Positions 4,152 through 25,965 of a DNA stretch of 64,000 bases are shown here, piece by piece (within the stretch, counting starts at the first letter, position 1; the number at the start of each line of letters is the position of its first letter). This DNA comes from an uncultured Paracoccus sp. (GTDB taxonomy: Bacteria; Pseudomonadota; Alphaproteobacteria; Rhodobacterales; Rhodobacteraceae). The DNA lies in contig NZ_CAMEFG010000016.1 in assembly GCF_945915435.1 (NCBI RefSeq), positions 1-64,000 of the forward strand, written 5' to 3'. Both the position numbers and the translations under genes were made by a program. The notes beneath the pieces were generated by a model. It saw only the letters and a list, made by a program, of their open reading frames with translations, searched no databases and had not been told where the DNA came from.

Positions 4152-5089
4152 TTACCCAAGCAGGTGAAGGCCAAAGAGGATGGTGGCGGCAAGGAAGACC
4201 GTCTCGGCCACGATCAGGGCGACGGCGCTGCCGCCGACCTCCATCATCCGCACGAGCGAGGTCTTGATCCCGACCGCAGCGATGGCGGTCAGAAGCGCCC
4301 AGCGGCTGAGTTCCTCGGCGGCATGGGCAACAAGGCCGGGGATGAGACCGAACAAGTTCACCGCCGCCAGAACCAGGAAACCTACGACGAAACCGGGCAG
4401 CAGAGGCGGACGTCCGCCGCCCTCGCCACCATCCAGCCCGCGCGCGCGGATCGCCAGCGAAAAGACCAGCACCACCGGGGCCAGCATGGCGACGCGAATC
4501 AGCTTAACCACGGTCGCGGTCTCGCCCACCTCGGGGCTGACAGAAAAGCCCGCGCCGACCACAGCACCGTGACGCCCATGACGGTAAAGGCCAGGTTGCG
4601 CTCGGACTTGTCGGTCCTGGGCAGGACGGCGGCAATGGCCATTGCCGCCGAGGCCCCGCAGATCGCCACCGCGCCGCCCGAAAGCAGCGCCATCCGCCAG
4701 CCGCGGCCAAAGAAGCGCGCGGCGATCAGGGCGAAAAGGATGGTCGCCACGACACCGCCGATCACTAGAAGGATCATCGCGCCGCCCAGATCGGTCAGCA
4801 TCCCGACCGAGATCCGCGCGCCCAGAAGCGCGACCCCCAGCCGCAGCACCGTGCGCGCCGCATATTCGACGCCCGCCTGCGTCCGCGTGCCGTTCTCGGC
4901 CAGGAAGTTCAACGCCAGCCCCATCAGCAGCGCCATCAGCATCGCGGGGGCGCCGTAATGATCGGACAGGAACTGCGCCGCAACCGCGACAAGAAGCGAG
5001 ACCGCGATGCCGGGAAACAGTTTCGGTCCGGCCGGCGTCCAGAAGATCCTGCGAGCCGGCGATTGCATCTGGTTTGCTGGTTTCGTCAT
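4152..5089 (-). pseudogene. suyZ: YeiH/COG2855 family putative sulfite/sulfate exporter (SuyZ-like), disrupted by an internal frameshifting deletion
   Basis: N-terminal part (MTKPANQ...ERNLAFTVMGVTVL) and C-terminal part (VVGAGFSVSPEVGETATVVK...FGLHLLG) lie in different frames. Relative to the intact paralogue at 18069-19079, about 35 residues (STLAMILYPIIG...IHDVAQ) are missing at the junction near 4563-4580. It lies directly downstream of suyAB. Confidence 0.8.
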
Positions 5090-5275: not shown

Positions 5276-6457
5276 TCAGGCGCTGCGATAGAGCTTGGTC
5301 ATCGAGAATTCGCGATGCCCCAGCGCCTCGGCGGCGGTGGCGCGGCCGTTCGCGGTGCGGATGATCATCTCGATCAGCGCGTCGCCCGCCTGGTCGATGG
5401 TCATCTCGCGCGTCAGAACGCCGGTCACGTCCACGTCGATATGTTCGGACATGGTGCGCAGGGTGCGCGGGTTGCCCGAGATCTTGATGACCGGAACGAT
5501 CGGGTTGCCGACCACGTTGCCCTGCCCGGTCGGGAAGGTGTGGATGACATAGCCGCCCGCCGCCATCAGCGTGACGCATTCCGCCGCCGCCGAGGAACTG
5601 TCCATGAAGTAAAGCCCCGGCCCCTTTGCGGGCGCCTCGGCCGGACCCATCGCATCGATATAGGTCGAGGTGCGGCCGATCTTTTCCAGGTTGCCCAGCG
5701 CCTTTTCTTCGATGGTGGTCAGGCCGCCGAGGATGTTGCCCTTGGTCGGCTGGCTGTCCGAAAGGTCGTCGGTCTGGTGGGCAAAGATCACGTCATCCTG
5801 ATAGGCCTGCCAGATCTGCCTGAACTTCGCCGCCGCCTCGGGGTTGGCGGCGCGCTTTTCGCAGATATGTTCGGCCCCGGTGATCTCGGACGTCTCGCCG
5901 AAGCAGCCGTAGATCCCCTGCGGCAGCAGCTTGTCATACATGTTGCCCACGGTCGGGCAGGAGGACAGGCCGGTGGTCGTGTCGCTTTCGCCGCATTTGG
6001 TCGAGATCCACAGGTCGCTGATCGGGCAATCTTCCTTTTGCAACTCGGTCGCCCAGTGGACGTATTCCTTGGCCTTCCAGCTTGCCTGGCGTATGGTCTC
6101 GAAATCGCCCTTCTGCTCGATGGAAAAGCCCGCGACAGGCTTGCCGGTCCTGGCGATGCCGTCGACGATCACCTGCGTCCATTCCGGTTCGATCCCGATC
6201 ACGACGACGGCGGCGACGTTGGGGTTCGCGCCGGTGCCGATGATGGTGCGGAAATGCAGGTCCAGATCCTCGCCGAATTGCAGCCGGCCATAGGCATGCG
6301 GGATCGCCATCGTGCCCTTGACGTTGTTGGCCACCGCCTCGCAGGCGGCGTTCGAAATGTCGTCCACGGGCAGGATCAGGACATGGTTGCGCACACCGAC
6401 GCGGCCATTCTCGCGGCGCCATGCCTTGACGGTCGTATTGCTGAAATCAAGAGCCAT
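5276..6457 (-). CDS. suyB: UxaA-family hydrolase, (2R)-sulfolactate sulfo-lyase beta subunit-like
   Basis: Altronate/galactarate dehydratase-like sequence ([66 protein letters not shown]) directly downstream of a small SAF-domain partner; arrangement matches suyAB. Confidence 0.82.
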
Positions 6458-6460: not shown

Positions 6461-6748
6461 TTACCACCGTTTCGTTTTGCAGTTGTGGGTGTGGACATGC
6501 TGTCCGACCTCGGCATCGCCGACCATCTTGCCGATATCCTCGCCGTATTTGATCACGGTATCGCCGGCCTTCAGCGGCTTCAGCGCGACCTTGTGGCCGA
6601 TGGGGATATCGGCCTTCGCAGTCAGGCGGAAATCCGAATTGTCGTGGGTGACGACGCAAAGCATCTCGGTTCCCGCCGAAAGGTTTTCGACGACGACGAC
6701 GCCGACGTTGTCCTCATGGTCGTGGACCAGAAGTTGTGGAATGCCCAA
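6461..6748 (-). CDS. suyA: SAF-domain small subunit, (2R)-sulfolactate sulfo-lyase alpha subunit-like
   Basis: 95-aa ORF MGIPQLLVHDHEDNVGVVVVENLSAG... immediately upstream of the UxaA-like subunit. Confidence 0.8.
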   Translation of the reverse strand: MGIPQLLVHDHEDNVGVVVVENLSAGTEMLCVVTHDNSDFRLTAKADIPIGHKVALKPLKAGDTVIKYGEDIGKMVGDAEVGQHVHTHNCKTKRW

Positions 6749-6800
6749 TTGCTCCTCCTTTTTTTGATGGCAGCATCAAATCCGTGGTTGATATTTATCA

Positions 6801-6820
6801 TGTATAAGATGTCTTATACA
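6801..6820. promoter_or_regulatory. 20-bp palindrome TGTATAAGATGTCTTATACA upstream of suyAB; GntR-type operator candidate
   Basis: 9-bp perfect inverted arms (TGTATAAGA/TCTTATACA) in the AT-rich suyA promoter region. Confidence 0.7.
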
Positions 6821-6915
6821 AGACTAATTCGTGGCTTTACCCGAATGGTTCCGTCTTGCCGGTCATTCGGCTGGCGATGGCCGGAGATTCCCGGCCAAAC
6901 CCCTTGGCAGGCTGC

Positions 6916-7935
6916 TTATTCCGCGTTGACGAAATCGGACAGCGCCTGATCCGCCGCGACGGCCAGCATGGGGCTGGGGTCGATGTAATCGCCCGCCTCG
7001 GGGGCCGTGGGGATCGTGCCCACGCTGGTCATGAACTCGGCGATCTGCGTCATCCAGCCATCGACATCGGACGCGCCATCGTCGCGGGCCATCATCGCCA
7101 CCTGTTCGTCCAGCGTGAAGATCGGGCGCAGTTCGAATTCGGCACTTACGCCCGCCTCGGAAATCTCGACCCCGCCCTCGGAATAGAAATCGACCAGCAT
7201 CTCGGTCGCTTCATCGGGGTTGGCCTTGATCCAGTTGATGCTTTTCAGATAGACGGCCAGGAACTTCTGGATGGCTTCGGGGTTTTCGGCGGCGAAATCC
7301 TCGCGCGCGACCAGCGCACCGGGAACGATGGCACCCGCATCCGCGCCCGAGCAAAGGTAATCGTAGCCCGCCCGTTCTTGCAGCGTATAGGTGTTCGGCG
7401 CCCAGACACCGGCGAAACGGCCGTTGCCGCTGATGACGGCGGAAATGATCTGGGCCTGCGCCAGATTGACGAACTCGACCGATCCGGGTTCGACGCCCCA
7501 GCTTTCCAGACAGGCGCGCGCGGTATAATCCACGGTCGAGTTGGTCGTCAGCAGCAGGCTGGTGATCTGGCCCGGGTCGGCCTTCACCGCCTCGATCTCA
7601 TCCGCCGGGGCCATGATCGCGTTGGTGCGCGATTCGTCATTGGTCAGGCCGATGGTCTTCAGTCCGAAACGCGACGCGCCAAGGATCGCGGGAACCGAGC
7701 CGGTCCCGCCCACGTCCCAGTCCCGCGCCTGCGCCGCCGCGATCTGCGGCGCGCCCGCGGGGAAGGTCACGAAGGACGGCTCAAGCCCGACCTCGGCCCA
7801 CCAGCCCTTTTCGGTCGCGACATGGAACGGCAAGGCCCAGTAGAGCGAGGGCTGATAGCTGACGGTGATCGCCTCGGCATGGGCGATCCCGCCCGTAAGC
7901 GCAAGCGCGAGGGCTGCGGAAATTCCGGTCTTCAT
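6916..7935 (-). CDS. ABC transporter substrate-binding protein, NitT/TauT (TauA/SsuA-like) family
   Basis: Signal peptide MKTGISAALALALTGGIAHA; TauA-like pattern (WALPFHVATEKGWWAEVGLEPSFVTFPAGAPQIAAAQARDWDVGGTGSVPAI). Confidence 0.85.
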   Translation of the reverse strand: MKTGISAALALALTGGIAHAEAITVSYQPSLYWALPFHVATEKGWWAEVGLEPSFVTFPAGAPQIAAAQARDWDVGGTGSVPAILGASRFGLKTIGLTNDESRTNAIMAPADEIEAVKADPGQITSLLLTTNSTVDYTARACLESWGVEPGSVEFVNLAQAQIISAVISGNGRFAGVWAPNTYTLQERAGYDYLCSGADAGAIVPGALVAREDFAAENPEAIQKFLAVYLKSINWIKANPDEATEMLVDFYSEGGVEISEAGVSAEFELRPIFTLDEQVAMMARDDGASDVDGWMTQIAEFMTSVGTIPTAPEAGDYIDPSPMLAVAADQALSDFVNAE

Positions 7936-7992
7936 CTTCTTCCTCCCAAGAATTGAATACGGGTTATTGTCCAGGGTGACGGGGGCACGGGG

Positions 7993-8790
7993 TCAGGCGA
8001 TCTCCATCGCCTTTTCCTCGCGCAGGCTTCGCCAGATCTGCGTGCGCAGGTGGACGAAGCTTTCCAGATCCATCACGTCCTCGATCTTTTCGTGGTCGTC
8101 CCAGCGCTCGGCCTCGCGGATCGTGCGGATGTCCACGATTTCCTTCACCCGGCCCGGCTGGCGGGCCATGATGGCCACGCGATCGGCCAGATAAACGGCT
8201 TCTTCGACGGCATGGGTGATGAACATCACCGTGCGCGGATTGCGGCGGGCAAGGCGGACCAGTTCCTCTTGCATGACGACGCGGGTCTGGGCGTCCAGCG
8301 CGCCGAAGGGTTCGTCCATCAGCAGGACCTCGGGGTCCAGCACATAGGCCCGCGCGATGGAAACCCGCTGCTGCATCCCGCCCGAAAGCTGATGCGGAAA
8401 GGCGTCGGCATAGCTGGTCAGGTTCATCAGCGCCAGGATGCGCTGGATGCGGTCGGCGCGCTCGGCCTTGGGCACGCGCTTGTTGCGCAGGCCCAGCTCG
8501 ATATTCTCGCGCACGGTCTTCCACGGCATCAGCGCGTATTGCTGGAACACCACCGCGCGGTCGGGGCCGGGGCTGGCGACCCTGACGCCATCGACGCTGA
8601 CGGTCCCCGAAGTCGGCTTGTCGAAGCCCGCGACGAAGCGCAGGCAGGTGGTCTTGCCGCAGCCCGAGGGACCGACGACGGCCATGAACTCCTTGTCCGC
8701 GATTTCGAGGTTCACGCCCTTCAGCGCCTCGAACCCCCCGGTCTTGTCGCCGTAGATGCGGCCGACATCGTCGAAGCGGATCTCTCCCAT
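7993..8790 (-). CDS. ABC transporter ATP-binding protein, NitT/TauT family
   Basis: Walker A GPSGCGKTT, signature LSGGMQQRVSIARA, Walker B VLLMDEPFGALD. Confidence 0.95.
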   Translation of the reverse strand: MGEIRFDDVGRIYGDKTGGFEALKGVNLEIADKEFMAVVGPSGCGKTTCLRFVAGFDKPTSGTVSVDGVRVASPGPDRAVVFQQYALMPWKTVRENIELGLRNKRVPKAERADRIQRILALMNLTSYADAFPHQLSGGMQQRVSIARAYVLDPEVLLMDEPFGALDAQTRVVMQEELVRLARRNPRTVMFITHAVEEAVYLADRVAIMARQPGRVKEIVDIRTIREAERWDDHEKIEDVMDLESFVHLRTQIWRSLREEKAMEIA

Positions 8791-8808
8791 CCGGTCATTC
8801 CTTCCGTT

Positions 8809-9591
8809 TCATGCCGACAGGCCCCGGCGGCGCAGGATGGCCTCTTCGACCTGCCGCAGAACCACGTCGATGATAAGTCCGATGATGCCGATGCCGATCA
8901 TCCCGGCCATGACGGTAGTGGTGGAAACGTTCCCCTGCCCCTGCACCATCATGTAGCCGATCCCGGTCGAGGCCACGATCAACTCGGCCCCGACCAGCGA
9001 CTGCCAGCCAAGCCCCGCCGAAATCCGCAGCCCGGCGATGATCGAGGGCACCGCCGAGGGCAGCAGCACCTCGGTGATCATGCGCCGGTCGGGGGTGCCC
9101 AGCATCCTTGCGGCCTCGATAAGGCGGGGGTCGGCGAATTTCGCACCACGATAGGCGTTGATCAGGCAGGGCGGAAACGCGCCCGCGAAGATGATCATGA
9201 TCGGCCCGCCGATGCCGGTGCCGAACCACAGCGCGGCAAAGGGCACCCAGGCGATCGGCGCGATGAAGCGCACCGCGTCAAAGAGCGGCGTCACGATATC
9301 GTCCAGCAGCCGGAACCAGCCCATCAGCAGGCCCAGCGGCACGCCCACCGCCACCGCCAGCCCGAAGCCGCCCGCGAAACGCAACATGCTGGCCCCAAGG
9401 TGGTCAAGCAGCGTGCCGCCTGCGAAGCGGTGGTCCAGCAGATAGATGAAACGCTCGATCACCGCCAGCGGCGAGGGCAGGAACAGGCTGGGGATCAGCC
9501 CCGAGACGCTGAGCAGCGTCCAGACCCCCAGAAAGGCGGAAAATCCGATCAGGCCCAGCAGCAGGTTGTTGGTGGTGTTGAAAATCCGCAT
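8809..9591 (-). CDS. ABC transporter permease, NitT/TauT family
   Basis: Multi-TM protein; EAA loop LIEAARMLGTPDRRMITEVLLPSAVPSIIAGLR. Confidence 0.92.
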   Translation of the reverse strand: MRIFNTTNNLLLGLIGFSAFLGVWTLLSVSGLIPSLFLPSPLAVIERFIYLLDHRFAGGTLLDHLGASMLRFAGGFGLAVAVGVPLGLLMGWFRLLDDIVTPLFDAVRFIAPIAWVPFAALWFGTGIGGPIMIIFAGAFPPCLINAYRGAKFADPRLIEAARMLGTPDRRMITEVLLPSAVPSIIAGLRISAGLGWQSLVGAELIVASTGIGYMMVQGQGNVSTTTVMAGMIGIGIIGLIIDVVLRQVEEAILRRRGLSA

Positions 9592-9595
9592 TACC

Positions 9596-10375
9596 TCAGT
9601 CCCTCGCCTGCGTCGCGGTGTTCCACGACAGCGCGCGGCGCTCGGCCACGCCAAGGGCGGCGGTCATCAGCCAGCCGCAAAGCGTGACGGCGATCATGCC
9701 GACAAGGATCATGCCGGGATACAGGTCCTGCTGCGCCGCGTTCAGCACCCGCCCCAAGCCTGTCATCGCACCGACCAGTTCCGCCGCGACCAGCGTGGTC
9801 CAGGATGCCTGCAAGGACAGGCGCAAGCCGGTGAAGATCATCGGGCTTGCGCCGGGCAGCAGCACCTCGCGCACGAAGGTCAGGAAGGGCGTGCCCAGCA
9901 TCTTCGCGGCCTCGATCAGCGTCCGGTCGAGGTTGCGCACCCCGGTATAGGCGTTGATGACCGAAGGGACGAAGGCCGCGAACCAGATCACCAGTATTTT
10001 CGCCGCATCCCCCAGCCCCAGCCACAGGATCGCCAGCGGAATCCAGGCCAGAGGCGGGATCGGGCGGATGATCAGAAAGACCGGATTGATCAGCGCCTCG
10101 GCCCTGCGGCTCCACCCCATCCACAGACCCAAGGGAACGCCGGTGCAGACCGCGACCACAAAGCCCAGGCTGACCAGCATGACCGAGCGCAGGACGTGAT
10201 CCAGCAGCACGCCGTTCGCATAGCCGGTGCCGGTGATCTGGCGGAACGCATCCCATGTATCGCCGGGCGACGGAAACCGCCCCGGAGAGATCATCTGCGT
10301 GACCGAGGTGGTCAGATACCAAAGGGCAAGGGCCGTGACGATCGTCGCGCCACCAACCATTGTCTTGCGTGACAT
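9596..10375 (-). CDS. ABC transporter permease, NitT/TauT family (second permease)
   Basis: EAA loop LIEAAKMLGTPFLTFVREVLLPGASPMIFTGLR; ATG at 10375 preceded by GGAGGAGAAGA. Confidence 0.92.
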   Translation of the reverse strand: MSRKTMVGGATIVTALALWYLTTSVTQMISPGRFPSPGDTWDAFRQITGTGYANGVLLDHVLRSVMLVSLGFVVAVCTGVPLGLWMGWSRRAEALINPVFLIIRPIPPLAWIPLAILWLGLGDAAKILVIWFAAFVPSVINAYTGVRNLDRTLIEAAKMLGTPFLTFVREVLLPGASPMIFTGLRLSLQASWTTLVAAELVGAMTGLGRVLNAAQQDLYPGMILVGMIAVTLCGWLMTAALGVAERRALSWNTATQARD

Positions 10376-10391
10376 TCTTCTCCTCCCATCT

Positions 10392-10411
10392 CTATGTAAG
10401 CGATTACATAG
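10392..10411. promoter_or_regulatory. LacI-type operator CTATGTAAGCGATTACATAG upstream of the ABC transporter operon
   Basis: 8-bp perfect inverted arms flanking GCGA; near-identical motif at 11684-11701. Confidence 0.8.
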
Positions 10412-10561
10412 GTAAAGGAGCCAGTCAATCTTTTTTCTTTCGGCAAGGGAAGACACACGGAAAATTCAGCGCCGCGTATCGTTATTTCATATTTATTCCA
10501 GCCAGTTGCAATCGAAAGGCGGTTCCGGCACCGGCGCGCACCCCGCCCCCATCGGCAAGAA

Positions 10562-11587
10562 TCACGCAGGCGCGGAAAGGTCCTTTCGCCGGGGCGGCGC
10601 ATGGGTGCCGCGCGCCATGAGGCGGGTCGGCAAAAGCACGCTTTCGCCCTCTTTTCCGTCGATGAGCTGCTGCAAGAGCCGTGCGGCTTCGCTGCCCATC
10701 CGACGGTGCGGAACCCGCACGGTCGTCAGTTCGGGATGGGTGATCGAGGCGATGTCGATATCGTCGAAGCCCGTGATCGTCACGTCCTGGGGCACACGCA
10801 AACCCATGCGATGCGCCGCGCGCAAGGCCCCCGCAGCCAGCACGTCGTTGCCGCATATGACCGCCGTGACAGGGTGATTCGCGATCAGGTCCTCGAACGC
10901 GCGCGCGCCGGTTTCCAGCCCATAGGGCACTTCGGCCACACCGCGAAAATCCAGCCCGGCCCCTGCAAGCGCGCGGCGCGCGCCCTCAAGGCGGCCCCGC
11001 GCCCGGTCGTTGCCCTCGGTCATGCCCGAGATCATGGCGATCTCGGTATGGCCCAGTTCAAGGACCATGCCGACCATCTCGGCAATGCCCGCCTCGTTGT
11101 CGAAACCCGCATAGGGCCGCGAATCACCGCTGGCCCATGCCAGAACATAGGGCACCCGCCGGTTTTTCAGCCATTCGTAGACCGCCGGGTCGCGGTCGAA
11201 ACCGACCAGCATCAGCCCGCTGGCGCCGCGCGCGACCAGCGCCTCGATCTGTTCCCTTTCGCGCTGCGGATCATAGCTCGAGGACGCGATCAGAAGCGCG
11301 AACTTACCGGGCGGAAAGGCTTGCTCGAACGCCTCGATCCCGTGGGCGAAAACCGCGTTTTCCAGCGTCGGCACGACCGCGCCGATGATCCCGGTCCTGC
11401 GCGAGGCCAGCGCCCGCGCCCCGAAATTCGGCGTGTAGTTCAAGGTGCGGATCGCCGCCATGACCTTTTCGCGGGTCGCCGGAATCACCCGCTCGGGCGC
11501 GTTCAGGCAGCGCGAGACGGTCGCCGTGGACACCCCCGCAAGCGCGGCCACGTCATCCACGGTGGCATGGGTCGTTTTTTCGCTCAA
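10562..11587 (-). CDS. LacI family transcriptional regulator (probable TTG start)
   Basis: HTH TVDDVAALAGVSTATVSRCLNAPERVIPATR; LacI C-terminal domain. Confidence 0.92.
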   Translation of the reverse strand: MSEKTTHATVDDVAALAGVSTATVSRCLNAPERVIPATREKVMAAIRTLNYTPNFGARALASRRTGIIGAVVPTLENAVFAHGIEAFEQAFPPGKFALLIASSSYDPQREREQIEALVARGASGLMLVGFDRDPAVYEWLKNRRVPYVLAWASGDSRPYAGFDNEAGIAEMVGMVLELGHTEIAMISGMTEGNDRARGRLEGARRALAGAGLDFRGVAEVPYGLETGARAFEDLIANHPVTAVICGNDVLAAGALRAAHRMGLRVPQDVTITGFDDIDIASITHPELTTVRVPHRRMGSEAARLLQQLIDGKEGESVLLPTRLMARGTHAPPRRKDLSAPA

Positions 11588-11683
11588 ACCAACATCCTCG
11601 CTGAACCTTCCGGCTTGCCGTTCAATTTCGCAGCAAGCGCATGGTTTGGCCAGAACCGATCCCAAAGGGGCTTGCGCCGGATT

Positions 11684-11701
11684 TATGAAAGCGCTTACAT
11701 A
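11684..11701. promoter_or_regulatory. LacI-type operator TATGAAAGCGCTTACATA between lacI and hpsN-like gene
   Basis: Same motif as 10392-10411 (TATGTAAGCGATTACATA); in the divergent intergenic region. Confidence 0.78.
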
Positions 11702-11783
11702 CGGTCGAAAGGCAGAAACCGCACCGCGGCAGGCTGATCCGCGCGGACGCAAGCCAGAGGCCAACCACAGAGGACCGAAGAAC

Positions 11784-13091
11784 ATGGCTGTGCATTACCT
11801 GAAAAAAGCGCCCAAGACCGCGACCAGCGACGCCGGCGAGACGCGGGGGATCGTCCAGAAGATCCTTGACGACATCGAAAAGGGCGGCGAGGAGGCCGCC
11901 CGCAAATATGCGCTGGATCTGGACAAATACGACGGCAACATCGTCCTGAGCCGCGACGAGATCGACGCCGCCAAGGCCCGGGTTCCGCAAAGGCTGCAAG
12001 ACGACATCCGCTTCGCCCATGACAACGTGCGCCGCTTTGCCCAGGCGCAAAAGGATTCGCTGCGCGATTTCTCGGTCGAACTGATGCCGGGGCTGACGAC
12101 CGGCCAGCGTTCGATCCCCTGTCGCTCGGTCGGGTGCTATGTGCCGGGCGGGCGCTACAGCCATGTCGCATCGGCGATCATGACGGTGACGACCGCCAAG
12201 GTCGCGGGTTGCCGGGACATCACCGCCTGTTCGCCCTCGCGCCCCGGCGCAGGGCTGAACCCCGCCATCGTCTATACGGCGGATCTGTGCGGCGCCGACC
12301 GGATCCTGGCGCTTGGCGGCGTGCAGGGGGTCGCGGCTATGGCCTTCGGGCTGTTCGGCAGTCCGCCCGCCGATATCCTGGTCGGCCCCGGCAACCAGTT
12401 CGTGGCCGAGGCCAAGCGGATCCTGTTCGGACGGGTCGGCATCGACATGTTCGCCGGTCCGACCGACAGCCTGATCCTTGCCGATGCCAGCGCCGACCCG
12501 ATGGTGGTCGCCGCCGATCTGGTCGGTCAGGCGGAACACGGTTATAATTCGCCGGTCTGGCTGGTCACCGACCACCAGCCGCTTGCCCGCGCCGTGATGG
12601 ACCTGGTTCCCCAACTGATCGCCGCGCTGCCCGAACTCAACCGCAAGAACGCCGAAGCCGCATGGCGCGACTATGCCGAGGTGATCCTTTGCGCCGACCG
12701 CGAGGAAATGGCCGCGGCGTCGGACGATTACGCGCCCGAACACCTGACGGTGCAGGCCGCGGACCTGGACTGGTGGCTGGACCGGCTGCAATGCTACGGC
12801 TCGCTGTTTCTGGGCGAGGAAACGACCGTCGCATTCGGCGACAAGGCGTCGGGTCCGAACCACGTCCTGCCGACCTCGGGGGCGGCGCGCTATACCGGGG
12901 GACTGTCGGTCCATAAATACATGAAAGTGGTCACTTGGCAGCGCGCCACCCGCGACGGCGCCCGCCCGATTGCCGAAGCAACCGCGCGCATCTCCCGTCT
13001 TGAAGGGATGGAGGGTCACGCCCGGACCGCCGATATCCGGCTGAAAAAATATTTCCCCGATACGCAATTCGATCTGGGCGCGGGTGGCTGA
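11784..13091 (+). CDS. hpsN: HisD-like dehydrogenase, candidate sulfopropanediol 3-dehydrogenase (HpsN)
   Basis: Histidinol dehydrogenase-fold motifs (CRSVGCYVPGGRYSHVASAIMT, ILVGPGNQFVAEAKR, DMFAGPTDSLILAD, AEHGYNSPVWLVT) without a his operon; located in a sulfonate gene context beside suyAB. Confidence 0.8.
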   Translation: MAVHYLKKAPKTATSDAGETRGIVQKILDDIEKGGEEAARKYALDLDKYDGNIVLSRDEIDAAKARVPQRLQDDIRFAHDNVRRFAQAQKDSLRDFSVELMPGLTTGQRSIPCRSVGCYVPGGRYSHVASAIMTVTTAKVAGCRDITACSPSRPGAGLNPAIVYTADLCGADRILALGGVQGVAAMAFGLFGSPPADILVGPGNQFVAEAKRILFGRVGIDMFAGPTDSLILADASADPMVVAADLVGQAEHGYNSPVWLVTDHQPLARAVMDLVPQLIAALPELNRKNAEAAWRDYAEVILCADREEMAAASDDYAPEHLTVQAADLDWWLDRLQCYGSLFLGEETTVAFGDKASGPNHVLPTSGAARYTGGLSVHKYMKVVTWQRATRDGARPIAEATARISRLEGMEGHARTADIRLKKYFPDTQFDLGAGG

Positions 13092-13092
13092 C

Positions 13093-13848
13093 ATGGAACG
13101 GGACCTGTTTTCCGTCACCGGCCGCGTGGCCTGCGTGACCGGCGCCAGCAGCGGCCTGGGGCGCCAGGCCGCGCTGACGCTGGCGCGGCGCGGCGCGAAG
13201 GTCATAGCCATCGCCCGGCGCAAGGACGAACTGGCCGCGCTGGCCGATCAGGGCGAGGGGCGCATCCACCCCCTTGCCGCCGATCTGGCCGACCGCGACG
13301 CCATTGCCGGGATCGCGGCGCAGGCTGCCCGACCCTTCGGCGCGCCCGAGATCCTGATCAACGCGGCGGGCGTGAACACCCGCGAACATGCCGACAAGGT
13401 GACGCCGCGGGGCTGGGACCTGACGCTGATGCTGAACCTCTCGACCCCCTTCTTTCTGGCGCAGGCGCTGGTGCCGGGGATGCGCGAAAAGGGCCGGGGG
13501 CGGATCGTCAATTTCGCTTCGCTGCAATCCAGCCGCGCCTTTGCGGCGGGGATCGCCTATGGCGCCTCGAAAGGCGGGATCGCGCAACTGACCCGCGCGA
13601 TGGCAGAAGCATGGTCGCGCGACGGCATCACCGCCAACGCGCTTGGCCCCGGCTTCTTCCGCACGGAACTGACCGCCGCCATTTTCGCGGACGACGCCCT
13701 TGCCGGACGCAATGCCGCGCAGACCTGCGTCGGCCGCAATGGCGAACCCGAGGACATGGATGGGCCGCTGCTGTTTCTCTGCTCGGACGCCTCGGCCTAT
13801 GTGACGGGGCAGATACTCATGGTCGATGGGGGGTTCACCGCGAAATGA
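13093..13848 (+). CDS. SDR family oxidoreductase (candidate HpsO-like DHPS 2-dehydrogenase)
   Basis: VACVTGASSGLGRQAAL cofactor motif; YGASKGG active site; C-terminal VTGQILMVDGGFTAK. Confidence 0.9.
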   Translation: MERDLFSVTGRVACVTGASSGLGRQAALTLARRGAKVIAIARRKDELAALADQGEGRIHPLAADLADRDAIAGIAAQAARPFGAPEILINAAGVNTREHADKVTPRGWDLTLMLNLSTPFFLAQALVPGMREKGRGRIVNFASLQSSRAFAAGIAYGASKGGIAQLTRAMAEAWSRDGITANALGPGFFRTELTAAIFADDALAGRNAAQTCVGRNGEPEDMDGPLLFLCSDASAYVTGQILMVDGGFTAK

Positions 13849-14822
13849 AGGCGCTTGTCTATACCGATACCGAAACGCTTGAAATGCGCGACATGCCCGA
13901 CCCGGTCCCCGGCAAGGGCGAGGCGCTGGTGCGGGTCGAGGCCGTGGGCATCTGCGGCTCGGACATGCACGCATGGCTGGGCCATGACGAGCGGCGGCCC
14001 GCGCCGCTGATCCTTGGCCACGAAGTCGCGGGCACCGTCGCCAGCGGTCCCCGCACGGGCCAGCGCGTCACGTTGAACCCGCTGGCGACCTGCGGCGCCT
14101 GCCCGGCCTGCCGCGCGGGGCGCGACAATCTCTGCCCCGACCGGCAGATCATCTCGATGCCCCCGCGAGAGGGCGGTTTCGCAGAACTGGTCCGCATACC
14201 CGAGCGCAACCTGGTGGCCCTGCCCGACCATGTGCCCGCCACCGCCGCCTGCATGGTCGAGCCGCTCGCCTGCGGATGGCACGCCCTGAGGCTGGCCCAT
14301 CGCGTGCTGGATGGCACGCCCGCCCGCGTCCTGATCCTGGGCGGCGGCGCGATCGGTTTCGGCGCGGCGCTGGCCGCGCGGGCGATGGGCAGCGCCGATA
14401 TCGCCATCGTCGAGCCGAACCCCGCCCGCCGCCGGCGCCTGTCCGAAATCGACCGCTTCACGATGCTGGAACGCGCGCCCACGGGTGCCGCGCCCGATCT
14501 GGTCGTCGATGCCGCAGGTTTCGCGGCGACACGCCAGACGGCTTCGGATCTGGTCGCGCCGGGCGGGGTCATCCTGCACATCGGCCTGGGCCAGCCGACC
14601 GAGGGGCTGAACATCCGCCGCATGACCCTGCAAGAGATCACCTTCATCGGCACCTATACCTATACCGCGCAGGATTTCCGCGATTGCGCACAAGCCCTGT
14701 TCGACGGGCGCCTTGGGCCATGCGATTGGGCCGAGACGCGCCCGCTGAACGAAGGGGCCGCCGCCTTTCGCGACATTCACGGCAATGCCGTCGCCGCGCC
14801 GAAGCTGGTGCTCGTGCCCTGA
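13845..14822 (+). CDS. Zinc-dependent alcohol dehydrogenase (MDR family), candidate second DHPS dehydrogenase
   Basis: GICGSDMHAWLG, GHEVAGTV, structural-zinc cysteine set CGACPACRAGRDNLC; ATGA overlap with the SDR. Confidence 0.9.
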   Translation: MKALVYTDTETLEMRDMPDPVPGKGEALVRVEAVGICGSDMHAWLGHDERRPAPLILGHEVAGTVASGPRTGQRVTLNPLATCGACPACRAGRDNLCPDRQIISMPPREGGFAELVRIPERNLVALPDHVPATAACMVEPLACGWHALRLAHRVLDGTPARVLILGGGAIGFGAALAARAMGSADIAIVEPNPARRRRLSEIDRFTMLERAPTGAAPDLVVDAAGFAATRQTASDLVAPGGVILHIGLGQPTEGLNIRRMTLQEITFIGTYTYTAQDFRDCAQALFDGRLGPCDWAETRPLNEGAAAFRDIHGNAVAAPKLVLVP

Positions 14823-14859: not shown

Positions 14860-15759
14860 CTAGTCGTCGAAGGTCCTTGCCGGCAGCGCCGATCTGAGCC
14901 GCAGCGTTTCCAGAACGGCGGACCAATCCTTCGGCCCGAACCCATCCGCCCGCGACATGGCATAGACCTGGCTGGCCGCCGCCCCGACCCCAAGGGGAAC
15001 GTCCAGCCCGGCGGCATATGCCAGCGCAAGGCCAAGATCCTTCGACGCCAGCGCCAACCCGAACTCGGGCGAGATATCCCCGCTGAAGATCTTGCGATCA
15101 TAGGCGCCGGTCAGGAAACCCTTGCCCGCCGTGGTCCCGGCCAGGACCTTGACCGTGCGCATGACGTCAAGCCCGGCGGCCTCGGCAAAGGCCAGCGTCT
15201 CGGCGGTCAGCGCGTTCAGCACCGTGGACATGTAATTGTTGACCAGCTTGGTCCGCGTTCCCGCCCCTGCCGGTCCGCAATGGATCGTTTCACGGCCCAC
15301 CGCGTCGAATACCGGCAAGGCCGCCTGGACATCCTGCGGATCGCCACCGGCAAGGATCAGCAACTGTCCGCGCTCGGCGAATTCCGAGGTTCCGCCGACG
15401 GGCGCATCCACCATGCGGATCCCCATCGCCGACAGGCGCCCGGCAATCGCGTCGGTCGCCTCGGGGGCGACCGTGCTCATGTCGATGTAAAGCGTGTCCC
15501 TTGCCATCGCATTCGCCACGCCGGGCGCAGCGAACAGCACTTCCTCGACATCCGGGCCGTTGGGCAGCATCGTCACGACGAAATCGCGGCCCTGGGCAGC
15601 CTCTGCCGCGCTGGCGGCGGCGTGTCCGCCTGCCCCGGCGATCCGGTCGACCGCCGCGGGGTCGAGATCGAAGGCCCACAGATCATGTCCGGCCTCGATC
15701 AGCTTGCGCGACATGGCGCTGCCCATGCGTCCAAGCCCGATGAACCCGATACTGGCCAT
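14860..15759 (-). CDS. 3-hydroxyisobutyrate dehydrogenase family; YihU (sulfolactaldehyde reductase)-like reductase
   Basis: IGFIGLGRMGSAMSRKL Rossmann; TMLPNGPDVEEVLF, KLVNNYMSTVLNALTAE, LAGTTAGKGFLTG, FSGDISPEFGLALASKDLGLAL. Confidence 0.88.
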   Translation of the reverse strand: MASIGFIGLGRMGSAMSRKLIEAGHDLWAFDLDPAAVDRIAGAGGHAAASAAEAAQGRDFVVTMLPNGPDVEEVLFAAPGVANAMARDTLYIDMSTVAPEATDAIAGRLSAMGIRMVDAPVGGTSEFAERGQLLILAGGDPQDVQAALPVFDAVGRETIHCGPAGAGTRTKLVNNYMSTVLNALTAETLAFAEAAGLDVMRTVKVLAGTTAGKGFLTGAYDRKIFSGDISPEFGLALASKDLGLALAYAAGLDVPLGVGAAASQVYAMSRADGFGPKDWSAVLETLRLRSALPARTFDD

Positions 15760-15887
15760 TCGTTCCCCCTTTTGCCGAATGCAGCCTGGCAATCCTTGAT
15801 CGAAAGACTGGCTAATTCAAATAAATAATACTTGCCGAAAGTGTAAGGGAAACTGCATGATTTTCGGGTTGGGGAAACGGGGCTGCC

Positions 15888-16799
15888 ATGACGATTCGAA
15901 TGCTCAGGACATTGATCGCGGTCGCCGATCACGGCACCTTCAGCGCGGCGGCGGATGCGGTTTTCGTCACCCATGCCGCCGTCAGCCAGCAGATGCGCGC
16001 GCTGGAGGCGGAATGGCAGGTCGCGATCTTCGACCGCTCGACCCGCACGCCGGAACTGACGCCCATCGGACGCGCCTTGCTGGCCAAGGCGCGCGAGGTG
16101 GTGCGCGCCTATGACGACATCGTGCCCTCGGTCCTTGGCGACGACGGGTTGAAGGGCGATTTCAGCCTTGGCGCGGTGCCCACGACCCTGACCGGACTGG
16201 TTCCCTTCGCGACCGCGATGCTGAAAGCGCAATGTCCCGAATTGCGCGTCGGGCTGTTTCCGGGCCTTTCCATCCCCCTGATCCATCAGGTCGAGCGGAA
16301 TGCGCTGGACGGCGCGCTGATCTCCAAGCCCGACATGCTGCCGCGCGGTCTGATCTGGCACCCGGTCGCCGCCGAAAGGCTGGTCCTGATCTGTTCGCAA
16401 AAGGTTCGGGACGACGATCCGGTGCGGATACTCAAGGAACACCCCTTCATCCGGTTCTCGCGCGATGCCGTGGTCGGCTCGATCATCGAGAAATGGTTGC
16501 TGGCCAACAACATATCCGTAAGCGACAGTATGGAGCTGGCCGGGCTTGAGGCGATCTACAGCATGGCGCTGGCCGGATTGGGCGTCTCGATCGTGCCCGA
16601 TTCCTGCGTCAGGATCGCCAGCCCGCCCGCCCTGCGCCGCATTCCACTGGCCCCCGAGGGCGGTCCCGCGCGGCACCTGGGGCTGGTCCAGCGCAAGGAC
16701 AGCACGAAAAGCCGCGTCATCCGCGAGATCGCCCGCGCGATGGAGCGCGCGGTCGAAGTGGGAACCTTCTCGCCCGAAACCATCGACCGGATCGCCTGA
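15888..16799 (+). CDS. LysR family transcriptional regulator
   Basis: MTIRMLRTLIAVADHGTFSAAADAVFVTHAAVSQQMRALEAEW HTH; LysR substrate-binding domain. Confidence 0.95.
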   Translation: MTIRMLRTLIAVADHGTFSAAADAVFVTHAAVSQQMRALEAEWQVAIFDRSTRTPELTPIGRALLAKAREVVRAYDDIVPSVLGDDGLKGDFSLGAVPTTLTGLVPFATAMLKAQCPELRVGLFPGLSIPLIHQVERNALDGALISKPDMLPRGLIWHPVAAERLVLICSQKVRDDDPVRILKEHPFIRFSRDAVVGSIIEKWLLANNISVSDSMELAGLEAIYSMALAGLGVSIVPDSCVRIASPPALRRIPLAPEGGPARHLGLVQRKDSTKSRVIREIARAMERAVEVGTFSPETIDRIA

Positions 16800-16845
16800 G
16801 CGCCGCAGCAGCGGACGGGCTTGCGATTGCCGCCGAACAGGGGCA

Positions 16846-16893
16846 ATGTAAAGATTACATGAATATTATAATAAAAACTTCATGTTCATGTAA
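16846..16893. promoter_or_regulatory. AT-rich region with inverted repeats (ATGTAAAGATTACAT; TTACATGAA...TTCATGTAA) upstream of the TauE/SafE gene
   Basis: Palindrome at 16846-16860, half-sites TTACATGAA (16855-16863) and TTCATGTAA (16885-16893). Confidence 0.6.
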
Positions 16894-16953
16894 GAAAATC
16901 TGTCGCCCCCCGGCGCATTCACCCCCTTCGAGATATGGAAGAGGCGAAACGAC

Positions 16954-17697
16954 ATGACAGCGGAATTCGTCGCGGTGCTTCTTGCCGGTGCATTTGCCGG
17001 AGGCTTCATCAACGGTCTGGCGGGATTCGGCACCGCGCTGCTTTCGCTGGGGCTGTGGTTGCAGATCATGCCGCCGCCGCAGGCCGTGGCGGTCGTGGTC
17101 GTCATGTCGGTGGTCAGCGGGTTGCAAGGGCTGTGGACCGTGCGGCGCGAAATCCGCGACCGTCCGGGCAGGCTGGCGCTGTTCCTGCTGCCGGGGCTGA
17201 TCGGGCTGCCGCTGGGGGTCACGCTGCTGAACGTGATCAGCGCGACGGCGCTGAAGCTGACGATCGCCGGTTTCATGGTCGCCTATGGCGGGTTCTTCAC
17301 CCTGCGCCGCTCATTGCCGCATTTCGACAGGCCGACGCCCGCCATCGATGGCGGGATCGGCTTTCTGGGCGGCGTCCTGGGCGGTGCGGCCTCGCTGTCG
17401 GGGGCGCTGCCGACGATGTGGTGCGCCATGCGCCCCTGGCCCAAGGGCGAAACCCGCGCGGTGCTGCAACCCTATAACGTGGGCATCCTGGGCGGGGCCA
17501 TCGTGCTGTTCGCCTTGCAGGGCCTTTACGACCGCGAAACCCTGCTGCTGGTCGCGCTGGCCCTGCCGGGCACGGTGATCGGCGCACAACTAGGCATCGC
17601 GCTCTTTCACCGGCTGAGCGATTCGCAATTCCGCCGCCTGCTGATTCTGGTGATGTTCGCCTCGGGCATGGCGCTGGCGCTGCGCGAGATGTTCTGA
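16954..17697 (+). CDS. TauE/SafE family sulfite exporter-like membrane protein
   Basis: Repeated TM halves with LAGAFAGGFINGLAGFGTALLSLG, PGLIGLPLGVTLLN, LALPGTVIGAQLGIALFHRLSDSQFRRLLILVMF. Confidence 0.88.
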   Translation: MTAEFVAVLLAGAFAGGFINGLAGFGTALLSLGLWLQIMPPPQAVAVVVVMSVVSGLQGLWTVRREIRDRPGRLALFLLPGLIGLPLGVTLLNVISATALKLTIAGFMVAYGGFFTLRRSLPHFDRPTPAIDGGIGFLGGVLGGAASLSGALPTMWCAMRPWPKGETRAVLQPYNVGILGGAIVLFALQGLYDRETLLLVALALPGTVIGAQLGIALFHRLSDSQFRRLLILVMFASGMALALREMF

Positions 17698-17729
17698 AAA
17701 GGGCGGATCACCCGCCCCTCCGGCAGGCT

Positions 17730-18044
17730 TCAAGCCGGTTTGAAGAAAGGTGCGGGGATCAGGATCTTGTTCTCGATATGATCGACCAGCGGGCGCATCT
17801 GGACCGCATAGGCCTGCCATTCCTCGGATGCCTGCAACGCCTTGCGGCGGGTCCAGCGGTCGTCCATGCTGTCATAGCCCCACATGTGGACGACCTGGTT
17901 CAGCGGCCCGATATCGGTGAAGTAATAGCCGACCATATTGCCCAGGATGCGGGTCTGCACGGCCAGCCCTTCCTCTTGGTATAGCTTCAGGAATTTGGGG
18001 ACATTTCCGTTCTTCAGCGTGTAGATCCGCATGTCGATGAACAT
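17730..18044 (-). CDS. NIPSNAP family protein
   Basis: MFIDMRIYTLKNGNVPKFLKLYQEEGLAVQTRILGNMVGYYFTDIGPLNQVVHMWGY pattern. Confidence 0.85.
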   Translation of the reverse strand: MFIDMRIYTLKNGNVPKFLKLYQEEGLAVQTRILGNMVGYYFTDIGPLNQVVHMWGYDSMDDRWTRRKALQASEEWQAYAVQMRPLVDHIENKILIPAPFFKPA

Positions 18045-18068
18045 CGCGATGCTCCTTTCGGGGGGGCG

Positions 18069-19079
18069 TCAGATATCAAGCAGGTGAATGGCGCATAGCG
18101 CGAAAACCGCCAGCAGCACGGTCAGGCCGCAAACGATGGCGATGGCGCCGCCGCCGACCTCGCCCAGCTTTTTCAGCGAGGTCTTCATGCCAAGCGCGGC
18201 GATGGCCGTGATCAGGCACCAGCGCGACAGTTCCAGCAGGATCGCGGTCGCCTGCGCCGGGATGATATCGGCGCTGCCGAGCAGCACCAGCGCGGCGAAG
18301 CCGATCACGAAGAACGGGATCGGCAGCGCGCCGCCCTGCCCCGCCGTGCGGCTTTTGAAGATGAGCGACAGGGCGACCACGACCGGCACCAGCAAAGCCA
18401 CGCGCAGCAGCTTGACGAAGGTTGCCGCCGCGCCCGCCTCGTCCGAGACCGAATAGCCTGCGCCGACCACCTGCGCCACGTCATGGATCGTCGCGCCGAA
18501 GAACACGCCCATCGCGTGGTCGGACAGGCCAAGCGCCGCGCCGATGATCGGATAGAGGATCATCGCCAGCGTCGAAAGCGCGGTGACGGCGATGACGGTA
18601 AAGATCGTGTCGCGCTCGTGGTTCGCATCGGTCTTGGGCAGGACCGAGGAAATCGCCAGCGCCGCCGAGGCGCCGCAGATCGCCACCGCGCCGCCGGTCA
18701 GCAGCCCGAAGGGCAGCGAACGGCCCAGCATCCGCGCTAGCACCACCCCCGCCCCGACCGTCAGCGCGACCCCGGCGAAGGTCACGACCACCACCCCGAT
18801 CCCGGCCGATGCGATCTGCTGCACCGTGATCCCCAGCCCCAGCAGCGCCACCCCGAAGCGCAGCAGCTTTCTGGCGGCGAATTCAATGCCTGGTTCCGCC
18901 GCCGATCCGGCTTCGGCAAGGAAAGTCAAGGCCATGCCCAGCAGCAGCGCCATCAGCATCACGGGCGCGCCGTAATGTTCCGAGATGAACTTCGCCGCCA
19001 GCGCCACCGTGACCGCCGAGACCAGCCCCGGAAACAGCAGCCGCAGGGTGCCGGGCATCGAGACGGCAAGCTGTCTCAT
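18069..19079 (-). CDS. YeiH/COG2855 family putative sulfite/sulfate exporter (intact paralogue)
   Basis: Full-length: LLTGGAVAICGASAALAISSVLPKTD, GVFFGATIHDVAQVVGAGYSVSDEAG, LSRWCLITAIAALGMKTSLKKLGEVGG. Confidence 0.92.
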   Translation of the reverse strand: MRQLAVSMPGTLRLLFPGLVSAVTVALAAKFISEHYGAPVMLMALLLGMALTFLAEAGSAAEPGIEFAARKLLRFGVALLGLGITVQQIASAGIGVVVVTFAGVALTVGAGVVLARMLGRSLPFGLLTGGAVAICGASAALAISSVLPKTDANHERDTIFTVIAVTALSTLAMILYPIIGAALGLSDHAMGVFFGATIHDVAQVVGAGYSVSDEAGAAATFVKLLRVALLVPVVVALSLIFKSRTAGQGGALPIPFFVIGFAALVLLGSADIIPAQATAILLELSRWCLITAIAALGMKTSLKKLGEVGGGAIAIVCGLTVLLAVFALCAIHLLDI

Positions 19080-19744
19080 CCGATCAATTCGTCCCGGCGG
19101 TCGTCGGTCTCGCCGAAGCGTTTCAGAACGGCGGGCCTGGTGCCTTCGTAGACGCGGGCCAGGTTCTCGGCGATCTTGGCGTTCTCGCGCTCGAACAGGC
19201 AGTTGCCTTCAAGGTCCGAGGCCACCAGGAACGGTCCCATCCGGTTGCAGCGGATCACCCACATCGCCTGGGCAAGGCCCAGTTCCTCGTTCCAATGCAC
19301 GGCCTCGACATTCTCGACCCCGCGGCCCAGCAGCGCGCCGGTGCCATAGCCCACGGTGGACAGGTAGACCGCGCCGTTCGGGACAAAATATTCCTTGTAG
19401 TCCCTGGACGACATGCCGCCCTTGCCGATGATCAGCTTGGCGCCGGTCCTGGCCATCCATTCGGGCAGCCACTTGGCAAAGCGAAAGCTGGCGGTGGCGG
19501 TCACTGCGCCCATGTCGAAGCTGCCGTCCTCGCGGATCGTGGCGGCGGGCGAGCAATGGAAATTCGCCGCGCTTTGCGAGGGCAGCTCCATCGGGATATT
19601 GGCCTGGTCTTCCAGCGCGCGCATATAGACGCCTTCGCGCGCGGTATACATCAGCCCGTTCAGATAAACGATGTCGCCCAGGCGCAGGGCGGCGATTTCC
19701 TCGGGCGTGGGGGTGGTGGACAGGATGACTTCACGCGGTTTCAT
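19076..19744 (-). CDS. Class I fumarase/tartrate dehydratase-type hydratase, beta subunit
   Basis: Fumerase C-terminal-like motifs (LRLGDIVYLNGLMYTARE, GKGGMSSRDYKEYFVPNGAVYLSTVGYGTGAL, NEELGLAQAMWVIRCNRMGPFLVASD). Confidence 0.88.
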   Translation of the reverse strand: MKPREVILSTTPTPEEIAALRLGDIVYLNGLMYTAREGVYMRALEDQANIPMELPSQSAANFHCSPAATIREDGSFDMGAVTATASFRFAKWLPEWMARTGAKLIIGKGGMSSRDYKEYFVPNGAVYLSTVGYGTGALLGRGVENVEAVHWNEELGLAQAMWVIRCNRMGPFLVASDLEGNCLFERENAKIAENLARVYEGTRPAVLKRFGETDDRRDELIG

Positions 19745-20712
19745 TCGGCGGCCTCCGTGGTGGCAGGCTGTTGGGTCACATCCCAGCCCACGGTCTCGCG
19801 GCGTTGATAGGGGGTGAACCAGTCGGGATCGGTGCGATGCTCGACCCGCCCATCGGGGAAGATGCGGGCCACGGCGCGGCGCGAGGACAGGCAGAAAGCA
19901 TGAACCGACATCTGCATGCCGCCGGTATGGCAATATCCGACCTCGATATGGGTATCGATCACCATGTTCTTGCCGACAAAGCCCATCGCGCCCATGCCGA
20001 TCGAGTTGCCCAGCTCCTTGAACTCTTCCTCAAGCGCGGCGATGCGCGGGTCGCTGTTGCGGTCGCCCACCGTGCGCAGGCAGGCGGCGCGCTTGCCCAG
20101 CACCATGCAACTGTCCTTGCAGCCGCCCAGGCCGATGCCGATGATCGCCGGCTGGCAGGCCAGCCCGCGCTTGCCAAAGGCCACGAGGCTGTCCAGATAG
20201 AACCGCTTGATCCCCTGAATCCCGTCCGAGGGGAACAGCATCCGGTAATCGGTCCCGAACAGCCCGCCCTTGTGGACGGTAATCAGGTCGATCCATTCGC
20301 CGCCCGGTTCATAGCCATATTCGATTTCCGGCGCGCCGATGCCGACGTTGTTGTCATGGTCGGTGCGCCACAGCGGATGCACCCGGTTGGGGCGCAGGGG
20401 CACGCCGTTCGTGGCGCTGGCGGTGGCGCGGCGCAAGGCCTCCTCCAGCGCGACGGGGCCGCCTTCGATGCGGGTGTCGTTGCCCATCTTGACATACCAG
20501 CGCGGGGTGCCGGTATCGCCGCACATGGCGCGGCGGTCCTGCTTGGCGGCCTCGTAATTCTCGAGCATCGCCTGCAAGACGAAAGAGGACAGGTCGCCGT
20601 CCTCGGTCTTTGCGGCGGCTTGCAGCCCTTGCAGGTAATCCTCGGGGATCTCGATGGCGGCCTTGGCCATCAGATCCTCGGCGGTGGACTGGATCAGGTT
20701 GATCGGTATCAC
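19741..20712 (-). CDS. Class I fumarase/tartrate dehydratase-type hydratase, alpha subunit
   Basis: CGDTGTPRWYVKMGND cluster motif; TDHDNNVGIGAPEIEY; GIGLGGCKDSCMVLGKRA; GMGAMGFVGKNMVID. Confidence 0.88.
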   Translation of the reverse strand: MIPINLIQSTAEDLMAKAAIEIPEDYLQGLQAAAKTEDGDLSSFVLQAMLENYEAAKQDRRAMCGDTGTPRWYVKMGNDTRIEGGPVALEEALRRATASATNGVPLRPNRVHPLWRTDHDNNVGIGAPEIEYGYEPGGEWIDLITVHKGGLFGTDYRMLFPSDGIQGIKRFYLDSLVAFGKRGLACQPAIIGIGLGGCKDSCMVLGKRAACLRTVGDRNSDPRIAALEEEFKELGNSIGMGAMGFVGKNMVIDTHIEVGYCHTGGMQMSVHAFCLSSRRAVARIFPDGRVEHRTDPDWFTPYQRRETVGWDVTQQPATTEAAE

Positions 20713-20733
20713 GTTCGCTTCCTTCCTGATTGG

Positions 20734-22494
20734 CTATTGCGCGGCGACCAGCGTTTCGGGTTCATGCGCGGGCAGGATCGTCTCGCCCGGCCGGACGATG
20801 GTGAAGGCGACCTGTTCGCGGCTCAGCACCAGGTCATCGCCGCTTTTCCGCGCGAGGGTGAAATACGAAGTCTCAAGATCGCCGCTTTCGGGGAAATCCT
20901 CGCGGTAATGCGCCCCGCGAGAGTTCTCACGCAATTCGCCCGCCTTTGCTATGACCTCGGACACCTCAACCAGCGAAGCCATGTTCAGCCAGTCATGCCA
21001 AGTGAGATTAAAGGCCAGATTGGCCGGATCGACACCGGTTTCCATCAACTCGTCGCGGATCTCGGCGATGCGCTTCTGGCCGCGCTGCAAGCCGGGGCCG
21101 GTGCGCATGACGCCGACATCTTCCCACATCGCTTCCTGCAACTTGTGGCGCAGCGGCTGGATCGGCGCGGCGGGGCGCGAAAAGGGATGGCAGGCGCGTT
21201 CGATCTCGGCGGCCAGCACGGCCTTATCGGGATCGCGCAGCGACATGCGGCGCACATCCATGCCCATCACATCGCCCGCGATACCGCCAAAGACGGTCGA
21301 GTTCGCCACGCCATTGCCGCCCAGCCGGTTCGAGCCATGCGCGCCGCCCGCATCCTCGCCCGCGACATACAGCCCCTCCATCCCGGTGCGGGTGTCGGGA
21401 TCGACCACCACGCCGCCCATGAAGTAATGCGCGGTCGGCACCACCTCCACCTTGCCCGCCGCCAGATCGAAGCCGCTGTCGGCACAACGCTTGACCATGC
21501 CCGCGAATTTGCGGCGCACATTATCCGGCCCGAGATGGCCCATCGAGATGAACATGCCGACCTGGCTGGGGTCGTTCATCTTGCGCATCTCGGCATAGAT
21601 GCCGCGGCTGACCACATCGCGCGTGGCCCGTTCGCCCCGCGCGTCATAATCGAACATGAAGCGGTCGCCGCGCGCATTCAGCAACTGTCCGCCCGCACCA
21701 CGCAGACCCTCTTCCAGAACGGTGCCGGTCATGCGGGTATGGTCGCCCGCCAACAGGCCGGTGGGGTGGAACTGCACCATCTCCATATCGCGCAGCGGCA
21801 GGCCGATGCGCAGGGCCATCGCCAGCCCGTCCATCGTCTTGTCGCCCGAGGGCGTATGATACTTGTACATGGTCGGGCCGCCGCCCGTGCCCATCATCAC
21901 GCATTTGGCGCGGACAAAGCGGAAGCGGCCCGTGCGCATGTCGATGAACAGCACCCCCGACAGCGCCGTGCCGTCGGCGGTCGGGATCAGCCCGATGGCG
22001 CGGTGTTCCTGCAATTTGGCGATGGGACGGGCCAGCACCTGCTCCATCAAGCGGCTGATGATCTCGATGCCGGTCAGGTCGCCCTTGTGGACGGTGCGGT
22101 CGGCGGTCTGGCCGGCGAATGCCTTCTGGTGCAGCGTGCCGTCGGGGTTGCGGTCGAAGAAACAGCCGACCTCGTTTTCCAATTCGCGGATGCGGACCAC
22201 GGCCTGCTCGCACAGCCGCCAGGCCATGTCCTGGTTGGGCAGCCATTTTCCGCCGTTGATCGTGTCCATGAAGTGGCGCTCGACCGTGTCGCCGCCGCCA
22301 AGCGCGACGTTATAGCCGCCCTGCACCATGCGCGTGCAGCCGCATTTGCCGATCAGTCCCTTGACGGCCAGCGTGATCCGGGTGCCCGGCGGCGCGCTTT
22401 GCTGGGCGTGCAGCGCAGCGAACAGCCCCGCCCCGCCCGAGCCGAGGATCAGGATGTCGGTCTCATCCCGTTCGATGTCGAATTTCAATGGCAT
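20734..22494 (-). CDS. Succinate dehydrogenase/fumarate reductase-like flavoprotein subunit
   Basis: DILILGSGGAGLFAALHA, MVQGGYNVALGGGDTVERHFMDT, MEMVQFHPTGLL, EEGLRGAGGQLLNARGDRFM, PTAHYFMGGVVVD, GAHGSNRLGGN. Confidence 0.93.
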   Translation of the reverse strand: MPLKFDIERDETDILILGSGGAGLFAALHAQQSAPPGTRITLAVKGLIGKCGCTRMVQGGYNVALGGGDTVERHFMDTINGGKWLPNQDMAWRLCEQAVVRIRELENEVGCFFDRNPDGTLHQKAFAGQTADRTVHKGDLTGIEIISRLMEQVLARPIAKLQEHRAIGLIPTADGTALSGVLFIDMRTGRFRFVRAKCVMMGTGGGPTMYKYHTPSGDKTMDGLAMALRIGLPLRDMEMVQFHPTGLLAGDHTRMTGTVLEEGLRGAGGQLLNARGDRFMFDYDARGERATRDVVSRGIYAEMRKMNDPSQVGMFISMGHLGPDNVRRKFAGMVKRCADSGFDLAAGKVEVVPTAHYFMGGVVVDPDTRTGMEGLYVAGEDAGGAHGSNRLGGNGVANSTVFGGIAGDVMGMDVRRMSLRDPDKAVLAAEIERACHPFSRPAAPIQPLRHKLQEAMWEDVGVMRTGPGLQRGQKRIAEIRDELMETGVDPANLAFNLTWHDWLNMASLVEVSEVIAKAGELRENSRGAHYREDFPESGDLETSYFTLARKSGDDLVLSREQVAFTIVRPGETILPAHEPETLVAAQ

Positions 22495-22497
22495 GGT

Positions 22498-22842
22498 TCA
22501 CACCGCCCGCAGAAGAAAGGTTGCAGAGATCAGGAAGGCGCCCGCCACCGCCCCGGCGGCCAGGCTTTTCTGGCGCGGCGACCAGGGCAGGAACTCCAGC
22601 GCCAAGAGGCGCAGCCCACCGAAGAAATGCACCGCCAGCAGAAAGACCAGCCCGAATTCCGCCAGCTTCACCAACGGGTTGTCGGCAAGGCTAAGGAAGT
22701 GGTCGAGTTGCCGGGGTCGCGTCAGCGCCAGCGACAGCATGTAGAAATGCGCGGGCAGGAACAGCGCCAGTGCCAGGCCCGACAGGCGATGCAGCATATA
22801 GGCCAGCCACAGCGGATGCCTGCGATGCGGCCTGACCATCAT
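22498..22842 (-). CDS. SDH/FRD-like membrane anchor subunit (cytochrome b type)
   Basis: Small 3-TM protein (HPLWLAYMLHRLSGLALALFLPAHFYMLSLAL) in an SDH-like operon. Confidence 0.78.
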   Translation of the reverse strand: MMVRPHRRHPLWLAYMLHRLSGLALALFLPAHFYMLSLALTRPRQLDHFLSLADNPLVKLAEFGLVFLLAVHFFGGLRLLALEFLPWSPRQKSLAAGAVAGAFLISATFLLRAV

Positions 22843-23899: not shown

Positions 23900-23970
23900 A
23901 GCGCATCCTGTTGGCTCAGTTCACGGGCCAAGTTTATTCACCAAAATATCTAACATAAAGGAACTAATTC

Positions 23971-25890: not shown

Positions 25891-25965
25891 AATCGCGGCC
25901 CGTCCCGATGGGGCGGGCCTGTTTGCCACGGAACGGGAAACCGTGGCTTTCGGGAGGAAAAAAGA

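Follow-up and report, generated by a model that had tools for sequence, protein, structure and literature searches.

Probable recent inactivation of a suyZ-type exporter gene beside intact suyAB in a draft Paracoccus genome

Introduction

Has the exporter gene that accompanies suyAB truly been lost from this Paracoccus genome and, if so, by what route would sulfite leave the cell? The window (the whole stretch of 64,000 nucleotides analysed here) is contig 16 of a draft assembly of 89 contigs and 3.5 Mb, with an estimated completeness of 88.8%; its closest relatives are Paracoccus. A reading of the sequence alone had described the exporter of its suyAB operon, at positions 4152–5089, as lying in two frames and broken by an internal deletion. 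It estimated the loss from a more distant paralogue (18069–19079) at 35 residues, or about 106 nt, and suggested that export may have passed to that paralogue or to a TauE/SafE-family gene. The explanation that we consider probable is that suyZ was inactivated here not long ago, an ordinary case of gene loss amid redundant sulfite exporters.

Results

The gene at 4152–5089 (minus strand) is a probable pseudogene of a suyZ-type PF03601 exporter, with a 106-bp internal deletion and a frameshift, as judged by reading frames, Pfam matches, orthologue alignment, and tree placement. Both of the frames previously described were recovered. The 5′ frame (4499–5089, minus strand) runs from an ATG at 5089 to a stop at 4499; its 176 native residues end ...NLAFTVMGVTVL and are followed by 20 foreign, frameshifted residues. 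The 3′ frame (4152–4562, minus strand) opens with a GTG at the junction, begins MVGAGFSVSPEVGETATVVK..., and encodes the C-terminal part of the exporter in 136 aa. The PF03601 (YeiH/SuyZ) profile is split over the two, with positions 1–153 in the 5′ frame and approximately 187/190–298 in the 3′ frame; some 34–36 profile positions are absent in between, and no single reading frame holds the whole profile. Alignment to the suyZ of a close relative confirmed the loss: P. siganidrum has an intact orthologue (locus L029), to which the two halves are 87% and 85% identical, and relative to it exactly 106 bp are absent, equal to 35 codons plus one base, in full agreement with the earlier estimate. The junction was placed at 4562|4563 (4561–4563 on the minus strand, the breakpoint being ambiguous by a 2-bp microhomology, GT, common to both edges). 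A comparison of the two edges found no common word longer than 4 bp, which rules out a deletion between longer direct repeats.

The lost segment corresponds to S160–Q194 in P. siganidrum numbering. Across 30 exporters, 13 of these 35 residues are invariant or nearly so (S160, T161, A163, M164, Y167, P168, G186, T188, H190, D191, V192, A193, and Q194), and the segment includes the conserved motif G-T-I-H-D-V-A-Q, which the window gene lacks. In an AlphaFold2 model of the P. siganidrum orthologue (mean pLDDT 89.8, pTM 0.86), the segment covers the end of a helix at 145–173, the whole of a helix at 178–188, a break, and the start of a helix at 192–202. A fold search with this model returned weak matches only, to elevator-type transporters such as CitS (TM approximately 0.5), and a PDB sequence search with the intact paralogue returned no match. 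By analogy with that fold class, the broken-helix pair would belong to the transport core. Given the loss of the motif and of a broken helix of the predicted core, neither half, alone or jointly, should transport, and it is very unlikely that what is left yields a functional protein.

Orthology is supported by both position and phylogeny. The window gene stands directly downstream of suyAB; in its nearest relatives, a PF03601 exporter follows suyB at a distance of 105–250 bp. In the exporter tree, the window gene pairs with its P. siganidrum counterpart (support 95/96) within the group of suyB-linked Paracoccus exporters, which bears out its assignment as the exporter of the suyAB operon. The lesion is private among the genomes searched: a 161-bp query spanning the junction was compared with 125 Paracoccus genomes (its own and 124 others), and, among the stronger matches, which were those listed, none from the 124 carried the same deletion, all except its own stopping at the junction; the break is thus not a matter of chance. 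Among 82 loci with a SuyB relative, the fetched stretches held 43 PF03601 exporters, of which 42 were full-length single frames and one was cut by a contig end. A shortened one-frame protein in a close relative, named in the sequence-only reading as counting against a broken gene, was therefore not seen among the 42 readable exporters near suyB. With intact orthologues in its relatives and a lesion of its own, the window gene is classed as a probable pseudogene.

No decay is evident in the rest of the gene. Over 301 codons shared with P. siganidrum suyZ, dN was 0.084 and dS 0.362. When only sites that five outgroups conserve are counted, the window gene has 3 private residues and the P. siganidrum gene 13; parsimony placed 9 protein changes and 17 silent ones on the window lineage, compared with 12 and 5 on that of P. 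siganidrum. Neutral drift of 0.02 changes per site would already be expected to yield about 13 protein changes. These counts give no sign of relaxed selection in the remainder of suyZ, and long-standing decay is ruled out by the lack of any excess of protein changes or stops.

The sulfolactate genes upstream are intact. The large subunit-like gene of (R)-sulfolactate sulfo-lyase, suyB (5276–6457, minus strand; galactarate/altronate dehydratase fold), is 97% identical to that of P. versutus, and the small subunit-like suyA, also intact, lies at 6461–6748 (minus strand), the two being annotated on plasmid pTAV3 of P. versutus as a UxaA family pair. A NitT/TauT-type ABC transporter (6916–10456, minus strand), presumed to be a sulfonate importer, comprises a binding protein, an ATPase, and two permeases in the same order as on pTAV3. 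The gap between its binding protein and suyA is only about 170 bp (6749–6915; compared with locus L107, 11946–12647), and the window lacks any equivalent of the GntR regulator that P. versutus and P. ferrooxidans carry there. On the plus strand (11445–14822), an hpsN-like gene of the histidinol-dehydrogenase family, an SDR, and a zinc alcohol dehydrogenase form a trio that recurs on pTAV3 and on pFER3 of P. ferrooxidans and is likely a DHPS-to-sulfolactate module. The best NCBIfam match of the gene at 14860–15792 (minus strand) was sulfolactaldehyde 3-reductase, at 330.6 bits, slightly below the curated cut-off of 348.

Three further PF03601 genes are present in the genome, all intact. The closest to suyZ is on contig C14 (28892–29779); with approximately 72% protein identity to P. 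siganidrum SuyZ, it precedes pta and adjoins a 113-residue remnant of xsc. Within C14:29949–30832 (L120:9450–10333), this piece, the C-terminal end of xsc (minus strand), lies about 42 bp from the likewise C-terminal, 166-aa remains of a MocR/TauR-like regulator on the plus strand, and the assembly contains no full xsc. The arrangement looks like one large deletion in a taurine operon that spared the exporter and pta, or it may be a misassembly. An exporter on contig C2 (104842–105735) is distant (33%) and lies beside a LysR gene. The paralogue at 18069–19079 (minus strand) was assigned by tree and profile search to a separate subfamily. From another family, an intact TauE/SafE-type sulfite exporter was identified by profile search at 16954–17697 (plus strand). 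Contig C13 encodes, at 39572, a SorA-like protein that bears a twin-arginine motif and is followed downstream by a cytochrome c, a pairing consistent with sulfite export followed by oxidation, as has been argued for Paracoccus (PMC11582611).

The subfamily of the 18069–19079 paralogue is long established, with relatives in P. versutus and Paracoccus sp. IB05. Its operon includes SDH-like subunits, fumarase/tartrate-dehydratase-like subunits, and NIPSNAP; genes for TauE and LysR adjoin it on the opposite strand. The same operon order is found on pTAV3, approximately 20 kb from an intact suyABZ; pFER3 carries an 81% identical copy, again with suyZ intact, and in Paracoccus sp. IB05 the paralogue also coexists with an intact suyZ. 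Its coexistence with intact suyZ elsewhere indicates an ancestral gene, not one that came in to replace suyZ. In 13 other Paracoccus species, much of the SDH-like/fumarase-like block was matched over long distances, the long match ending where the exporter starts in several of them, including P. siganidrum. As a whole, the conserved cluster (15888–26970) comprises LysR, TauE, NIPSNAP, the PF03601 exporter, two fumarase/tartrate-dehydratase-like and four SDH-like subunits, and an SsuA-type ABC transporter.

The SDH/FrdA-like flavoprotein of this cluster (20734–22494, minus strand) is a second copy; the housekeeping-type copy is split over contigs C25 and C83. Aligned with E. coli FrdA, it has Cys in place of what we take to be the FAD-linking His and Glu-Glu in place of the presumed active-site Thr-Glu, while the other His and Arg residues to which we ascribe catalytic roles are retained.

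Discussion

The absence of decay in the rest of suyZ means either that the lesion is very recent or that it is an assembly error. We regard as unlikely the case in which the organism has an intact suyZ and 106 bp were lost through assembly or a mixture of strains. The draft state of the genome, the restriction of the deletion to this one genome among those searched, and the undecayed remainder of the gene would all fit such an artefact, but a repeat-collapse misassembly is not expected where the edges share so short a word, 106 bp is not typical of base-calling error, and the genes around it in the window have full reading frames. We favour a real deletion, since the edges contain no repeat that could mislead the assembly. 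Far more improbable is that the locus continues to yield a functional exporter, truncated or in two pieces, whether through frameshifting or through a restart of translation at the junction GTG. The two frames are indeed both open, and the 3′ one starts with that GTG; however, the 35 missing residues rank with the family's most conserved positions and help to build the predicted core, and such a form was found in no relative, either among the matches listed or at the 82 SuyB loci. Programmed frameshifting specifically is ruled out by the absence of a canonical slippery heptamer in the frame overlap, as well as of any relative of such form.

A more specific account, compatible with gene loss as an addition to it, holds that the loss is tolerated through takeover by the 18069–19079 paralogue or the adjacent TauE. 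We consider this possible but doubtful. Both genes are intact and only 12–13 kb from suyZ, and in P. wurundjeri grown on sulfofucose, which involves SuyAB, a cluster described as fumarate/tartrate-related, with a TauE homologue, is upregulated (PMC12421959). That cluster was likened to the window operon by description, however, and P. versutus and P. ferrooxidans have this operon together with an intact suyZ, while the C14 exporter is more closely related to suyZ. Of the earlier proposal, a back-up role for the two genes thus remains plausible, but the paralogue is no replacement and the C14 copy is the closer relative. A still bolder version would have sulfite export rewired, with suyZ lost, the paralogue and TauE carrying efflux as a pair, and their operon serving a sulfonated dicarboxylate such as sulfosuccinate, a class of substrate suggested by the presence of two sulfite-type exporters in one cluster. 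As a guess from gene content only, sulfosuccinate might be oxidised to sulfofumarate and hydrated at the sulfonated carbon, yielding sulfite and oxaloacetate. The literature searched contained nothing relevant on a genetic sulfosuccinate pathway or on a pathway for such a cluster, and we think this version quite improbable.

Recent, ordinary loss of suyZ is thus the reading that we prefer. One deletion of 106 bp, joined across 2 bp of matching sequence, would have taken out 35 residues and shifted the frame. Sulfite made by SuyAB would then exit by another exporter, whether the TauZ-like C14 copy, the 18069–19079 copy, or TauE, and be oxidised outside the cytoplasm by the SorA-like enzyme; judging from gene content, back-up export is plausible, with at least three candidates. 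Taken alone, the loss of suyZ is routine gene loss. What the locus offers is intact suyAB beside a knockout, made by nature, of the very exporter that takes its name from the SuyAB pathway; should the strain prove to carry the lesion, one could test directly if the cell requires SuyZ in the presence of other sulfite exporters.

One of the closest known systems is that of P. siganidrum M26, where the suyZ orthologue (L029:11284–12273) likewise follows suyB, at 105 bp, but as an intact 330-aa frame. SuyZ of Paracoccus pantotrophus NKNCYSA, placed in the PSE (putative sulfate exporter) family, TC 2.A.98 (Rein et al. 2005, as cited in PMC11582611), is also an exporter-family gene accompanying suyAB; compared by description, the window gene differs from it by the frame-shifting 106-bp deletion. 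The C14 exporter shares family and gene order with the TauZ-like exporter found between intact xsc and pta on plasmid IV of P. aminovorans; unlike suyZ, it belongs to the sulfoacetaldehyde/taurine branch, and its own xsc partner is just a remnant. TauE of Cupriavidus necator, as cited in PMC12421959, has the same proposed job, the export of sulfite after sulfonate cleavage, but TauE/SafE proteins (PF01925) belong to a different Pfam family from suyZ.
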